64,000 bases of DNA, from contig NZ_AQVA01000001.1 in the NCBI RefSeq assembly GCF_000372485.1, positions 1-64,000 on the forward strand, read 5' to 3'. Below are positions 18,040-27,990 of the stretch, one piece after another. The first letter of the stretch is position 1; every line of letters begins with the position of its first letter. The translations under genes and the position numbers were made by a program. Source of the stretch: Oenococcus oeni DSM 20252 = AWRIB129 (lineage in GTDB: Bacteria > Bacillota > Bacilli > Lactobacillales > Lactobacillaceae). A model generated the notes under the pieces. That model was given only the letters and a program-made list of their open reading frames with translations. It made no database searches and had not been told where the DNA came from.

Positions 18040-18627
18040 TTAATTAAAATTAGGAATCTCTTTTTCGTAAGCTTCAATTTTTTTGGCGTAATTCATTGTG
18101 ATCGCGATGTCATCGAGGCCATTGATGAATTTGTGTTTCCAAAGCGGATTAATTGAAAAATCAAACTGATACTTTTCATATCGTACCTGTTGCCTTGGAA
18201 GATCAACAATGATTTTTTCTTTAGCTGGAATTGAAGCCAGGATTGTTCGATCTTTTTTAGGAAGCTCGATCGCCAAAAGACCATTCTTTGTACTGTTCAT
18301 ATAGAAAATATCGCTGTAGCTCCCGGCGATTACGACTTGAAAGCCATAATCCTTTAGTGCCCAGACGGCGTGTTCTCTCGATGAACCACAACCGAAATTT
18401 TCTCCCGTTACCAAAATTTGTGCCTGCTTGTATTCCGGCTTATTTAAAATGAAGTCCGGATTGGCCTCTTTTGAAGTGGCCTTGTAACGCCAGTCATAAA
18501 ATAAATTGCGTCCGTAGCCACTTTTAAGAATATTTTTTAAAAACTGTTTTGGAATAATCTGATCAGTATCGATATTGTCCCTCATTAAGGGAATTACGCC
18601 ACTGTTAATTGTTGTAATTTTTTTCAT
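18040..18627 (-). CDS. leuD: 3-isopropylmalate dehydratase small subunit
   Basis: Small (swivel-domain) subunit of isopropylmalate isomerase, working with LeuC in leucine synthesis. It has 195 residues, the usual length, with [16 protein letters not shown] near the start and [17 protein letters not shown] carrying the substrate-loop GCGSSREH. The ATG at 18627 overlaps the leuC stop as TGATG, with AGGAGA just upstream; an in-frame TTG directly before it is less likely. Last gene of the leu operon. Confidence 0.95.
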
Positions 18628-20000
18628 CAAATTATCTCCTTTCTGATATCAATGAAACGACCGTGGATTGCTGCAGCGGCAACCATTGCCGGACTTGCTA
18701 AATGAGTCCTTGAACCGGCTCCCTGGCGACCGGCAAAATTACGGTTGGATGTCGAAGCACAATGAATTCCTGCTGGTACTCTATCGGGATTCATCCCCAG
18801 GCATGCCGAACAACCGGGTTCGCGCCACTCACAACCAGCCTCTTTGAATATTTTGTCCAAGCCGATTTTTTCGGCTTTTTCTTTAATTTTTCGTGATCCA
18901 GGAACGACTAATGCAGTAATTCCGTTTTTGATATGTTTGTTTTTTAGAACTTTTGCAGCAATAATCAAATCGGAAAGGCGACCATTGGTACAGGAACCAA
19001 AAAAGACAAATTTAATTGGTATTTGGTTTGCTTTTTCGCCAGCTTTCAAACCGACATATTCATAAGCTTTTTTGTCTTCTTCGTTTTTAATTTTTGGAAA
19101 AGGCTGATCTATTGGTACAGCCATCCCTGGGTTTGTTCCCCAACTGACAAAAGGTGCCAATTCGTTAACACTGAAATCGATTACCTTATCAAAAGCATCC
19201 GGACTGTCCGTGTAAAACTGTTTCCAGTAAGAAACTGCTTTTTCCATATTGCCCGGCGCATATTTTCGATCGGCGATATAATCAAAGGTTGTTTGGTCTG
19301 GCTGAATACTTCCCATTTTGGCACCGCCTTCGATGACCATGTTGCAAAGAGTCATTCGCTCTTCCATGTTCATATTCCGAATTGTATCTCCGTAAAATTC
19401 AACTGCGTAACCAGTTCCAAAGGAGACACCTTCACGAGCAATAATACCCATGATAATGTCTTTGGCATAAACTCCTTTCGACAACTTTCCGTGGACATGG
19501 ATTCCGATTGTTTTTGGTTTTGTTTGCCAAATCGTTTGTGTGGCGAGAACATGCTCGACCTCACTGGTTCCGATTCCAAAAGCGATCGAACCAAATGCTC
19601 CATGAGTGGCCGTATGTGAATCTCCGCAAACAATTACCATTCCTGGTTGGGTTAGGCCCAGTTGCGGACCAATAACGTGAACAATTCCTTGGTCTTTTGA
19701 TCCCATTCCAGCCAAACGAATTCCGAAGTCTTTTGTGTTTTTAGCTAAGGTTTCAATTTGTTTTTTGGAAATTAAATCTTTGATATTGAAAATATCGACC
19801 GTGGGAACATTGTGATCCATTGTGGCAAAATTTCGATCCGGCCGTCTGACCTGACGATTTTTTTCCCGCAATCCTTCAAAAGCCTGTGGCGATGTGACTT
19901 CGTGAAGTAGTTGCAGATCAACGTAAATCAATTGTGGTTCGCCGGGTTCTCCGGTAATTACATGTTGATGCCAGATCTTGTCGAACATTGTTTTTTTCAT
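18627..20000 (-). CDS. leuC: 3-isopropylmalate dehydratase large subunit
   Basis: Aconitase-family subunit holding a 4Fe-4S cluster; isomerises 2- to 3-isopropylmalate with LeuD. From the ATG at 20000 it has 457 residues. [10 protein letters not shown] opens it, then [24 protein letters not shown] with the first cluster cysteine, [10 protein letters not shown] with the other two, and [12 protein letters not shown]. The frame is open 69 bases farther upstream into leuB, but the conserved start is at 20000. The gene looks intact although leuB just upstream is broken. Confidence 0.95.
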
Positions 20001-20007
20001 ATTTATT

Positions 20008-21062
20008 CTAGTTTTCCTCAATTCTTTTGATAATTGCATTCGTAACAACAGTTGTTTTGCTGTTTCCACCTAAGTCGGGAGTTGTTGTACCACCTTCTAT
20101 TGTTTTATTGACACTATCTGTGATTCGCTTGGCCAAATCTTTTCGATTAAAACTGTGGTCAAGCATCATGGCAACTGAATTAATCATCGATAAGGGATTG
20201 GCAATTCCTTTTCCTGCGATATCGGGCGCTGATCCGTGGATTGGTTCGTAAAGGGCTGGGCCGTGATCGCCCCCCGGCTTATCGAAGGGATTGTTCCCAA
20301 AGAGCCGGTAATTTGGGCCGCTTCGTCACTTAAGATGTCGCCGAATAAATTTTCGGTTACGATTACGTCGAATTTTTCCGGAGCGGAGATAATTTTCATT
20401 GCTGCGGCATCGACGTAGCAGCTGTCAAAGCTAATCTCGGGAAATTCTTTGGCAACTTGGTTGGCAATTCTCCGCCATAGTTTGCTGGTTGCCAAGACAT
20501 TGGCTTTATCGACTAGAGTGACATGATGGTTGCGTTTTGCAGCCGTTTGGAAAGCAATTTTCACTATTCGTCTTATTTATGTTGCGCTATAACGCATGGT
20601 ATCGAGAGCTGCTTGTTCAGACTCTTCTCGTGGTTTTCCAAAATAAATTCCACTGGTCAGTTCTCGAACGATTAAAAAATCAATTTTTTTAATTTGTTTT
20701 AAGGGCGAATACTTTTGCATAGCGGGACTAATGGCCGTCGGCCTAATGTTTGCGAAGAGATTTAAAGCTTTACGAATTTCTAGCAATCCTGCCTCTGGTC
20801 TTTTAGAAGCTTGGTCCCATTTGGGGCCGCCGATTGCAGCCAACAGAATCGCGTCGCTATCTTGACATTCTTTTAGCGTATTCGCTGGCAGTGGATCACC
20901 GTCTTTGTCAATTGCTGCACCGCCAAAGGGCAGTTCCTTGATTTTATAATCAAAATTTTTATTTTTACTAACAGCTGCTAAAACAGCTAATCCGGCTCGC
21001 ATTATTTCAGGGCCAATATAGTCTCCGGGCAAAACAGCGATTTCAAAGCTCCGCCCATTCAT
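20008..21062 (-). pseudogene. leuB: 3-isopropylmalate dehydrogenase, broken by a stop and a frameshift
   Basis: Two lesions split this gene. First, after TMRYSAT (residue 161) an in-frame TAA at 20577-20579 replaces what is probably GAA; the same frame continues IRRIVKIAFQTA. Second, after [10 protein letters not shown] the frame is lost at a run of six C on the forward strand (about 20268-20273). One more base restores [22 protein letters not shown] and the frame to its end at 20008. Repaired length would be 351 residues, normal for LeuB. N-terminal LPGDYIGPEI and the metal-site region [18 protein letters not shown] are otherwise intact, so decay is recent. The ATG overlaps the leuA stop (ATGA). 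Confidence 0.93.
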
Positions 21063-22222
21063 CTTTTCACCTCACTAATTTGCTGCATTATTACCTGTAA
21101 ATCTTTTTCGTCGATAAGAGCTTTTTTGTCGGCTCTTTCTTTGAAAATTGGAAAAATAATTTTCATTGATTCGTGATCGAACGGATAACCCATTTCCTTT
21201 AGCTTTTCCATTACGGCATGTGAACCGGATAGTTTTCCCAGGGGCAGTCTAGTAGATTTTCCGCCGACTGTTTCCGGCCTTAGGATTTCGTATGTTTGGG
21301 GATTTTTCAATATTCCGTCTTGATGAATACCAGATTCATGGGCAAAGGCATTATTACCGACGACTGCCTTATTTTTTGGCAAAGGCATTTTGGAGTACCT
21401 GCTAATCATTTCACTGGTTGCTTGGGTATCTTTTAAGTTGATATTATCGGTCGCATGATAGTAGTCTTTACGAACATATAGGGCTGCCGCAATTTCTTCC
21501 AATGCAGCATTTCCAGCTCTTTCTCCAATGCCGTTGATTGTTCCCTCGATTCGTGTGGCTCCATTTTCGATTGATGCCAGACTGTTCGCGACAGCCATAC
21601 CTAAATCATCATGGCAATGAACGGAAAAGATAACTTCGTCAAAAGTGGGAATATTCTTTCGAAGATATGTGAATAAATCGGCAAATTCGGCGGGATTCGT
21701 ATAACCGACTGTATCGGGGATATTAATAACACTTGCGCCTGCTGTGATAGCTGTTTCAATCGCTTGGACTAAGAAAGTTCGTTCCGTGCGGGTCGCATCT
21801 TCCGGTGAGAATTCAATGATTTCAAAAAAATGATGGGCATATTCAATGCTGCCTTTGATTTTTTCAAGAACCTCTTTTTTTGTCATATGTAGTTTGGATT
21901 GACGATGAATCGGACTGGTAGCGATAAAAATGTGAATTTGTTTATGAATTGCCGGCGCAGTGGCCTGTACACAGGCATCGATATCCTTTTTATTAGCGCG
22001 GGCCAAAGCAGTTACTCGAGCCTTTTTAATTGATGAAGCTACCGCTTGAACTGCTTGGAAATCTCCCTTCGAAGCTACGGGAAAACCCGCCTCGATTACA
22101 TCGATACCCCGTTTTTCTAGTTGTTGCGCAATAGCTATTTTTTCTTCGATGCTGAAATTAACGCCAATTGTTTGTTCGCCGTCTCTTAAAGTTGTATCAA
22201 AAAACTGAATTTTTTTAATCAT
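21059..22222 (-). CDS. leuA: 2-isopropylmalate synthase, short form
   Basis: Condenses 2-ketoisovalerate with acetyl-CoA in the first step of leucine synthesis. The 387 residues contain the DRE-TIM barrel: [11 protein letters not shown] at the N-terminus, [17 protein letters not shown] with the metal-binding His, [14 protein letters not shown], and [14 protein letters not shown]. The typical protein is about 510 residues with a C-terminal regulatory domain that binds leucine; here that domain is absent and leuB follows directly, leaving no remnant. Start 22222 begins the conserved [11 protein letters not shown]; the longer open frame runs back into the terminator hairpin. The ribosome site is weak. 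Confidence 0.93.
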
Positions 22223-22247
22223 TTTGAATAATCTTTTTTTTGGAATA

Positions 22248-22282
22248 AAAAAAGTATCCCAACAAAATGGGATACTTTTTTC
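22248..22282 (-). terminator. Attenuator terminator in the leu leader
   Basis: On the reverse strand AAAAGTATCCCA pairs with TGGGATACTTTT over a very short loop and continues into a run of T. It lies between the leader peptide and leuA, so it must be read through for the operon to be expressed. Confidence 0.85.
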
Positions 22283-22288
22283 GACAAG

Positions 22289-22338
22289 CCCCATTTCTAC
22301 AACAAAATAGGGCTCGACAAATAATAATTGTCAGAGTC
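22289..22338 (-). promoter_or_regulatory. Alternative hairpins of the leu attenuator
   Basis: Between leader-peptide stop and terminator, the reverse strand can fold in competing ways. GGACTCTGACAA (22327-22338) can pair with TTGTCGAGCCC. AGCCCTATTT (about 22305-22314) can pair with AAATGGGGCT (about 22289-22298). The latter's AAATGGG is also perfectly complementary to CCCATTT in the terminator stem-loop. TTGTCGA occurs twice, at both hairpin edges. Which structure forms when ribosomes stall needs a folding calculation. Confidence 0.55.
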
Positions 22339-22343
22339 CTATA

Positions 22344-22415
22344 TCAGAGCAACAAGGCTTTTAAAGAGATCATGTATGAAAAATTATTCATTGAAATATT
22401 GATAAATTTATTCAT
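22344..22415 (-). CDS. leuL: leu operon leader peptide with terminal Leu-Leu-Leu codons
   Basis: A 23-codon frame reads MNKFINISMNNF then SYMISLKALLL and stops with TGA. The last three codons are TTG TTG CTC, with another Leu (TTA) five codons from the stop, so 4 of the last 6 sense codons are Leu. A perfect AGGAGG (22425-22430) stands 9 bases before the ATG at 22415. Hairpins and a terminator follow before leuA. This is the layout of ribosome-mediated transcription attenuation, as known for the leu-ilv operon of Lactococcus lactis. An upstream ATG 2 codons nearer the AGGAGG gives only MNYE. Confidence 0.8.
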   Translation of the reverse strand: MNKFINISMNNFSYMISLKALLL

Positions 22416-22447
22416 AATTCATAACCTCCTCAAAAATGTTTAAAACA

Positions 22448-22453
22448 AGTGTA
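22448..22453 (-). promoter_or_regulatory. -10 box of the leu operon
   Basis: Reverse-strand TGATACACT offers an extended -10 (TG-N-TACACT) 18 bases before the leader peptide's AGGAGG. The -35 (TGATCT at 17 bp) is weak. Confidence 0.4.
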
Positions 22454-22502
22454 TCACTTAATTATTAAAAAGATCACTAAGTTTATTGAAAGAAATTATT
22501 TT

Positions 22503-23201
22503 TCATTGCATGTCGGCATGATTAATTCTTTTTGCCAACCAGTCGCCAATTCCCTGGATCGCAAATATTAAAATCAGTAAAGCAATCGTGCCGATCCAAA
22601 CGACATCGTATTTTGATTGTTGTCCGAAGGTCACAACGGTGTTTCCCAGACCGCCTGATCCGATTGCACCGGCCATTGCCGTTAAACCGACCAAACTGAT
22701 CAGGGTTACTGTTGAAACGCGAATTATTTCCGGGAAACTTTCTCTCATGTAAATGACCAGAATATCCCAATTATTTGCACCAAGAGCCTGGGCCGCTTCG
22801 ATTTTCCCTGTATCAACCGATTTAAGGACTACTTGAATCTGTCGTGCGTAAAATGGAGCGACCGAGAGGCTTAAAGGAACCAAGGCGGCTGTTGCGCCGA
22901 GCGTAGTCCCGATTAAAACTTGTGTAAAGGGCGAAATCACGAATAGAAGAATTATAAATGGAATTGCTCGAAAAATGGAAACAATTTTATCAGCTAACCA
23001 GAAAATTTTTCCGTTCGGCAAAATTCCATCGTCGTCGGAAATAACCAAAATAATTGCAAATACTAAACCAATTGCACCGCCGATGATGGCTGAGAAAAAT
23101 GTCATGTATAGGGTTTGATATATTGCCGCCCACCAGCCATAGTCGCCGCTCCAGCCCATTGAAACAACATTCGGCAGGACTTTAATTAACCAATTAATCA
23201 T
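22503..23201 (-). CDS. metI: Methionine ABC transporter permease
   Basis: Integral membrane subunit of the MetNIQ methionine importer. At 232 residues it has the usual length with five to six helices and the coupling-helix EAA-like stretch EAAQALGANNWDILVIYMRE near residues 135-155. GSGGLGNTVVTFG is a typical MetI segment. Its ATG overlaps the metN stop (4 bases). Last gene of the T-box-controlled methionine operon. Confidence 0.93.
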   Translation of the reverse strand: MINWLIKVLPNVVSMGWSGDYGWWAAIYQTLYMTFFSAIIGGAIGLVFAIILVISDDDGILPNGKIFWLADKIVSIFRAIPFIILLFVISPFTQVLIGTTLGATAALVPLSLSVAPFYARQIQVVLKSVDTGKIEAAQALGANNWDILVIYMRESFPEIIRVSTVTLISLVGLTAMAGAIGSGGLGNTVVTFGQQSKYDVVWIGTIALLILIFAIQGIGDWLAKRINHADMQ

Positions 23202-27685: not shown

Positions 27686-27990
27686 CAAAAAAATCGCTCC
27701 TGTAAATTAATACAGAAGCGACTTGTCGCGTTACCATCCTGATTTGTTTCTTTGCTTGCACAAATAAACCTTACTAACCATCTTTGTTAGCAGATGGGCT
27801 AACAGCAATGGCGTGTCCGATAACGAGGACCATTCCGTTTGATACTTTCGGTAAACCGTTCGTATCAACCAATCACCGGCCATTTTCCTTTTCTTAGTAA
27901 AGATCGGCTTACAGCTAGTACCGACTCTCTAGACATTACTGGAAAAGTACTTTCCAGATCAATTCGTTTGAAATCTACGTAACACAATAT
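27686..27990 (-). promoter_or_regulatory. T-box riboswitch of the methionine operon
   Basis: The reverse-strand leader of metQ contains the T-box core GGATGGTAACGCG (27727-27739), which base-pairs with the uncharged tRNA acceptor end. A terminator follows (27686-27721: TCGCTTCTGTA pairing imperfectly with TACAGGAGCGA, then seven T). Upstream lie an AGTA element, the GAGAGTCGG...GCTG...CCGATC stem I pattern, and a candidate specifier ATG at 27881-27883 (AAAATGGCC). A Met specifier agrees with the genes controlled. The family is standard in Firmicutes; specifier assignment is by eye. Confidence 0.88.

Follow-up and report, generated by a model that had tools for sequence, protein, structure and literature searches.

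A probable ribosome-mediated leucine attenuator ahead of leuABCD, with related leaders in lactic acid bacteria

Results

The window, by which we mean the whole 64,000-nucleotide stretch of DNA analysed here, carries leuABCD behind a leader that directly follows metI, which ends at 22503 on the same strand as the leader (Table 1). Direct reading gave a leader frame of 23 codons (22415-22344, minus strand) with its ATG at 22415 and its TGA at 22346-22344. The Leu codons of the frame are TTA (codon 18), TTG (21), TTG (22) and CTC (23), and the last three abut the TGA. The frame, its perfect AGGAGG and the final TTG-TTG-CTC are thus as the preliminary description of this DNA had given them. An ATG at 22422 yields only MNYE followed by a stop. 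The competing hairpins and the rho-independent terminator that had been proposed ahead of leuA are also present; the arms of the terminator stem (22282-22247) are GAAAAAAGUAUCCCA and UGGGAUACUUUUUUU, and leuA begins with an ATG at 22222. Folding of the leader (22440-22243) gave a z of -8.09 relative to 200 dinucleotide shuffles. From leader start to terminator, the window differs by a single base from its relative G004, in which leuB is continuous with 350 residues; the breaks in leuB of the window may be sequencing error in an assembly of 28 contigs.

Table 1. Positions of the leader elements and leu genes in the window
Feature	Position	Strand	Evidence or remark
Hairpin on the ribosome-binding site	22358..22436	-	outer 17 bp, 22436-22420 with 22374-22358
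Shine-Dalgarno sequence AGGAGG of the leader peptide	22425..22430	-	read directly
Leader peptide MNKFINISMNNFSYMISLKALLL, then TGA	22344..22415	-	read directly; other genera keep the peptide end before leuA
Match to covariance model R1	22248..22364	-	96.9 bits, E 4.2e-18 in own genome
Segment 0, AAGCCUUGUU; holds Ala codon GCC plus the first Leu codons, possible partner of 3	22351..22360	-	83.2% of cells paired
Segment 1, AUAGGACUCUGACAA; partner of 2	22328..22342	-	core 1:2 96.3% paired, 49 leaders
Segment 2, UUGUCGAGCCCUAUUUU; partner of 1 or 3	22304..22320	-	2:3 96.5% paired
Segment 3, GAAAUGGGGCUU; partner of 0, 2 or 4	22286..22297	-	alignment pairing counts
Segment 4, core CCCAUUU; antiterminator partner of 3	22265..22271	-	3:4 96.8% paired
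Intrinsic terminator 4:5, stem of 15 bp with U tract	22247..22282	-	direct reading; 91.6% paired
leuA, 387 aa, without C-terminal LeuA_dimer domain	21059..22222	-	frame and profile match
leuB, one in-frame stop codon and one frameshift	20008..21062	-	continuous frame in G004
leuC, open frame, family match from residue 24	18627..20069	-	frame and profile match
leuD	18040..18630	-	frame and profile match

The ribosome-binding site of the leader can be locked by the leader's own codons. In the 17-bp hairpin its partner consists of codons 15-19 together with one base each of codons 14 and 20, and the pairing probability of the Shine-Dalgarno sequence was 1.0 in the window and above 0.8 in 24 of 49 leaders.

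Pairing was counted in an alignment (A2) of 49 distinct leaders, where L062, which is misaligned in segment 1, was counted as a break; L025 and L077 were left out of the extracted leader set, and L006 was lengthened by hand. The successive pairings of the segments are mutually exclusive, and these alternatives were kept in the 49 leaders, with 91.6% (4:5) to 96.8% (3:4) of the alignment cells paired (Table 1). When the partner was slid by 1-3 columns as a control, no more than 62.7% of cells paired in the same 49 leaders. Changes on both sides occurred in 4 of 7 pairs of 3:4 (reached by 3 of 500 shuffles) and in 8 of 9 pairs of 4:5 (0 of 500), and in 2 of 10 pairs of 2:3 (42 of 500) and 1 of 6 pairs of 1:2 (405 of 500). 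Compensatory changes, a search for which had been proposed earlier, are therefore clear for 3:4 and 4:5 and slight for 1:2 and 2:3, and the covariation in 3:4 and 4:5 points to a terminator and an antiterminator that are maintained as mutually exclusive structures. The additional pairing 0:3 was kept at 83.2% in the 49 leaders; its inner pairs are nearly invariant and its covariation is weak.

The same pairings were counted outside the training set (A3), where 51 of 54 matches were used and three on the strand opposite a real match were dropped. In these 51 rows the paired cells were 273/305 for 1:2, 419/457 for 2:3, 324/356 for 3:4 and 248/288 for 0:3, and slid partners reached at most 0.73. 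Pairing was poorer for 0:3 before ilvD (66/90 and 23/33), for 1:2 before LivJ-like and related genes (53/72), and for 3:4 in two leaders ending in AVILI (6/14). Segments 2 and 3 are separated by a stretch (22298-22307; many relatives have TTTGCGTTA) that appears to be conserved beyond what pairing needs; that it might be a polymerase pause site is a guess.

The preliminary description had staked its reading on conservation of the frame and its Leu codons in relatives, and the frame end and Leu codons turned out to be kept in other genera. In 47 of the 49 distinct leaders the stop (31 TGA, 13 TAA and 3 TAG) follows ALLL or VLLL without a gap, and the remaining two have one Cys and one Asn codon in the stop position. 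Across the 49 leaders the three Leu codons are spelled TTA, TTG, CTA, CTC, CTG and CTT; because they vary synonymously, the Leu residue is held while the codon is free. The codon preceding the run is GCC in 48 of 49 training leaders and GTC in one, and its fixation would be explained by its pairing with segment 3. This pattern is expected if a ribosome reads three Leu residues and RNA pairing holds the codon before them. Outside the training set the codon at this site was GTC in 26 of 51 rows, GCC in 20, TAT in 3, TTA in 1 and ATT in 1, so that G-Y-C was found in 49/49 training leaders and 46/51 others. GTC is the rule before ilvD (15/17 from the order, 5/6 from genus g108), and GCC prevails before LivJ-like and related genes (11/12) and before leuB (7/9). 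The codons of the run match the pathway, with [A/V]LLL before leu genes and Val-Ile-Leu mixes (LVIIL, LVILL) before ilvD. Both the G-Y-C rule and the match of codons to pathway have exceptions.

The T-box that had been noted on the neighbouring methionine genes is present at 27711-27971 on the minus strand, with 95.6 bits against a gathering score of 93. A consensus scan of the minus strand from 22150 to 22650 gave no sigma-70-like site, and between metI and the leu leader (22431-22503) it gave neither a consensus promoter nor a terminator; these negatives are weak, since the same scan missed the evident terminator at 22282-22247. With no such signal between metI and the leader, T-box-controlled met transcripts could run into the attenuator. 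The elements of the two sensing mechanisms described as lying side by side are thus both there, and on this weak negative they may instead act in series. The position of the leader directly behind metI on the same strand, with no consensus promoter found, would also suit an explanation in which the terminator does no more than close the met genes and the short frame arose by chance and is never translated. However, other genera have the same kind of peptide end, hairpins and terminator before leuA, leuB, ilvD and transporter genes, the spelling of the Leu codons varies synonymously, and 3:4 and 4:5 show compensatory changes, which makes that explanation extremely unlikely.

To place the leader among its relatives, LeuA was searched for at E <= 1e-100 and found in 84 of 397 genomes of Lactobacillaceae. 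Upstream of leuA, the window's leader type stands in 54 of the 84 and a different Leu-rich leader in 26; three have a T-box, and in one the contig is too short. A leader ending in ALLL or VLLL with the same RNA accounts for 51 of the 84, two of them with one extra residue. Three more of the 54 were placed by a match to R1, a covariance model built from these leaders: G245 (also by its peptide), whose leader lies about 590 bases upstream; G132, whose match is at the end of another contig; and G354, where it is upstream of a partial LeuA. Among the 26 other leaders, 16 have an LLL run and 10 were called by eye, and the difference in their RNA was likewise judged by eye. Genus g17 and some others carry a different-looking Leu-rich leader (ALLLNLLR and similar) before leuA (L079-L103). 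The three T-boxes before leuA scored 63-81 bits (gathering score 93; E 4.2e-12 or better), and a leader peptide of the window's kind was sought in these three genomes and not found. Among six other genomes of the window's genus, the leader DNA and leuA were present only in G004; two of the rest are 65-68% complete. The preliminary description had called such attenuation uncommon in Firmicutes, where T-boxes would be usual; this fails for the leu genes of Lactobacillaceae, with Leu-rich leaders in 80 and T-boxes in 3 of the 84 genomes. The counts indicate that control before leuA in Lactobacillaceae is usually by leader-peptide attenuation, not by a T-box. The leader is not a product of chance, and related putative switches occur in many other lactic acid bacteria.

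An Rfam scan of the window leader gave no family at threshold among 24 matches up to E 10. Neither Leu_leader nor leu-phe_leader, which we take to be the Rfam leader families for leucine operons, was among these 24; the T-box model RF00230 gave no match on the leu leader, and RF02414 (rli60) stayed at 18.0 bits (gathering score 60, E 6.9). A PyrR-family match at 28.2 bits (gathering score 54, E 0.047) was below threshold. An alternative is a leader that needs no translation of its frame and instead binds a ligand or a protein, be it a T-box, a PyrR-type or another element. In its favour are the weak PyrR-family match and the commonness of T-boxes in Bacilli. Against it are the lack of any Rfam family at threshold on the leader and the three genomes in which a T-box before leuA comes without a leader peptide of the window's kind, and we regard such a leader as barely plausible here.

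We examined how a ribosome on the leader would affect its folding by masking a footprint whose assumed end lay 11 nt beyond the first base of the codon in the A site. Whatever the mask, the terminator won in full-length folds, where the mean P(3:4) did not exceed 0.04. We therefore folded partial transcripts, each starting 6 nt ahead of the Ala codon, stopping where segment 4 ends and omitting the upstream leader hairpin. With the A site at the first Leu codon (Leu1), the partial transcripts of the 49 leaders had mean probabilities of 0.84 for 3:4, 0.83 for 1:2 and 0.10 for 2:3; with the A site at the stop, these were 0.18 for 3:4 and 0.78 for 2:3. For the window leader the corresponding partial transcript gave P(3:4) 0.55 and P(2:3) 0.37 at Leu1, and 0.00 and 1.00 at the stop. 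Its preference for 3:4 is thus modest at Leu1 and gone at the second Leu codon (0.08), which is a narrow margin. Five of the 49 leaders lacked a preference for 3:4 over 2:3 at Leu1, and seven kept the preference for 3:4 at the stop. Counted from the first base of the stop codon, the fold changed after 5 to 10 nt on average and after 3 to 5 nt in the window. Without a ribosome, full-length leaders had means of 0.91 for 0:3 and 0.84 for 4:5, and the partial transcripts had P(3:4) of 0.36 on average and 0.47 in the window. Folding with and without masks, which had been put forward as a check, therefore gave the expected flip on partial transcripts on average, modestly in the window, and none at full length.

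R1, whose training set includes the window leader, was used to look for the same RNA elsewhere. Beyond the window leader, its own genome had R1 matches only at E 0.45 or worse. At E <= 0.01, false matches included, R1 matched in 134/397 genomes of the family and 164/395 of the order; at E <= 0.001 it matched in 16/299 genomes of the class, six of them belonging to the order and the other ten to a single further genus, g108, whose loci may be from staphylococci. Matches before pyrG-like genes (L148, E 8.7e-5; L152, E 2.6e-4) and at L156 (E 0.0014) were judged false by eye, and R1 matches from about 1e-4 upward are for that reason not trusted.

The downstream genes at R1 loci were read by eye and tested with profiles in a few. 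They comprise leuA, leuB (L114) and ilvD (L280, L289, L321 and L336), as well as transport genes of the MFS (L109, L154), Peripla_BP_6 LivJ-like (L137, L146), SBP_bac_5 (L140) and SBP_bac_3 (L149) types, where the loci named are those tested with profiles. Before one LivJ-like gene the peptide runs on past ALLL as LALLLNTRT. The same scaffold with the peptide end AVILI is found at L149 (205-319), ahead of the SBP_bac_3 amino-acid-binding protein, and at L150 (1321-1435). Of seven loci tried with the rli60 model, two, L329 and L336, both from g108, reached threshold; a third g108 locus, the Listeria locus L321 and three loci from the order stayed below it. R1 and rli60 overlap on the ilvD leaders L329 and L336, which supports relatedness, not membership.

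The LeuA of the window and three named lactobacillar LeuA proteins have no LeuA_dimer domain, which is present in one LeuA each from Listeria, Streptococcus and Enterococcus. LeuA_dimer was matched in 0/201 genomes of the family, many of them without any LeuA, compared with 14/14 controls, and the complete LeuA frames of the family (388-447 codons) are too short to hold it. With this domain missing from LeuA, leucine-specific control may rest largely on the attenuator.

Trees were built without 7 of 49 LeuA rows (all g17) and 1 of 30 ClpX rows (g27). In the ClpX tree the window's genus stands with g17, g7, g39 and g2 apart from the sampled lactobacilli (100/98), and ClpX identity puts the window at a similar distance from the two groups (63-69%). 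In the LeuA tree the window lies inside the lactobacilli group (95/95), apart from g17, g7, g39 and g2 (100/99), and its LeuA shares 70-75% identity with that of the closest lactobacilli, mostly 57-67% with that of others, and 53-58% with that of g17. The simplest reading of these trees is that the operon and its attenuator were gained horizontally, maybe from lactobacilli; an old duplication with loss may instead lie behind them.

Discussion

The arrangement that had been proposed for this locus, a leader peptide with competing hairpins and a terminator that together sense leucine through a translating ribosome, is supported by the present analysis. Judging from sequence and modelled folds, we consider it highly probable that leuABCD is preceded by a ribosome-mediated transcription attenuator that senses leucine and has six segments (0-5), and the leader and its hairpins very probably restrict expression of the leu genes to leucine shortage. 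From the conserved codons, the alternative pairings, which covary in part, and the mask-dependent fold of the partial transcript, we infer a stall, its timing, termination and a response to leucine as follows. When charged tRNA-Leu is low, the ribosome would stall at the first Leu codon of ALLL, covering segment 0 and sparing 1:2; with 1:2 formed, segment 3 would be free for segment 4, the antiterminator, and leuABCD would be transcribed. When leucine is present, the ribosome would get to the stop, three codons on, and cover segment 1, whereupon 2:3 would pair and the terminator 4:5 would form. Since the terminator dominates at full length, such a switch would rest on co-transcriptional timing. 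If the leader is not translated, 0:3 (around 1:2) or 2:3 would be expected to hold segment 3 and so to allow the terminator; the share of 3:4 on the ribosome-free partial transcript means that this off state without translation is not clear-cut.

That nearly all distinct leaders (47 of 49) have ALLL or VLLL abutting the stop might suggest nascent-peptide arrest, in which the ribosome would be held at the stop by the ALLL peptide itself or by the action of free leucine on that peptide. Yet relatives run past ALLL, both in the LALLLNTRT before a LivJ-like gene and in the ALLLNLLR of g17, the run is recoded before ilvD, and a ribosome at the stop favours 2:3, which is the off state. We therefore hold arrest to be very unlikely and prefer stalling of the ribosome for want of charged tRNA-Leu.

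The mechanism itself is already known, and the interesting part is the uncatalogued, recodable scaffold. Tentatively, and with slightly less than even confidence, we propose that these leaders are one scaffold, represented in Rfam only via rli60, which extends over Lactobacillales and at least one genus beyond and acts as a recodable cassette. Rewriting three to four codons would set the amino acids sensed ([A/V]LLL for leu, LALLL for LivJ-like, Val-Ile-Leu for ilvD and AVILI for an amino-acid ABC transporter), and the codon before them would stay G-Y-C because it is an RNA pairing arm. In the same proposal, the allosteric domain of LeuA was lost in Lactobacillaceae, the switch is maybe the main leucine-specific brake, and the window's genus acquired it together with the operon. 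Such a scaffold would tie together scattered cases in Firmicutes (Rli60 and other ilvD leaders) and would provide a set of natural variants that differ in their codons while the RNA switch stays fixed. Because LeuA_dimer was matched in none of the family genomes searched, the system would also allow tests of pathway control where feedback on the enzyme has been lost.

Among known systems, the T-box (RF00230) resembles the window leader in sensing amino-acid supply through transcription termination; it differs in giving no match on the leu leader and in standing before leuA in only 3 of 84 genomes of the family. The ilv-leu attenuator of Lactococcus lactis, reportedly described by Godon in 1992 (cited in PMC5794164), is alike as a predicted leader attenuation in a lactic acid bacterium, the likeness being one of description, not of sequence. 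The his-type attenuator of enteric bacteria has six segments with its regulatory codons in the first arm, and a stalled ribosome frees the next hairpin. The window leader shares the six segments, the codons in the first arm and a stalled ribosome that would let the next hairpin form, whereas its segment 0 pairs with 3, not with its neighbour, and no Rfam model of that kind matched it.

Branched-chain synthesis has been described as being under T-box control in Bacillales and Clostridia, and as lacking that control in staphylococci, Listeria and several streptococci, according to the accessible part of that study (PMC2494555). A His leader in bacilli was presented, in the portion available, as the first leader-peptide system outside Proteobacteria and Actinobacteria to its authors' knowledge (PMC2965389). 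The accessible parts of both papers do not mention the window's leader type. Nor did any title or abstract start in our literature search, in which subscription journals were thinly covered, concern this leader type in Lactobacillaceae, and its novelty is unproven.

The ilv-leu attenuator of Staphylococcus aureus likewise has a Leu-rich leader, a terminator and an alternative fold before a branched-chain amino acid operon; as far as the available text goes, it differs in having Ile and Leu codons and ilvD as the first gene, and it is likened here by description only (PMC5794164). The closest characterised case is Rli60 of Listeria (RF02414, an ilv-leu leader), a ribosome-mediated attenuator according to the reporters and mutants in the accessible part of the report (PMC5864092). 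Mutants of its start codon and ribosome site were made, and these we take to be the 'super-attenuator' mutants that, in the same excerpt, grew like an ilvC deletion (PMC5864092). Rli60 and the window leader would have in common ribosome-mediated attenuation of branched-chain amino acid genes, and R1 matches the ilvD leader of the Listeria genome at L321 (42.8 bits, E 3.5e-7). They differ in that the end codons of the window leader are Leu only and stand ahead of leuABCD, and in that the published Rli60 model, as given in the part available, has four segments (PMC5864092), compared with the six proposed for the window leader.
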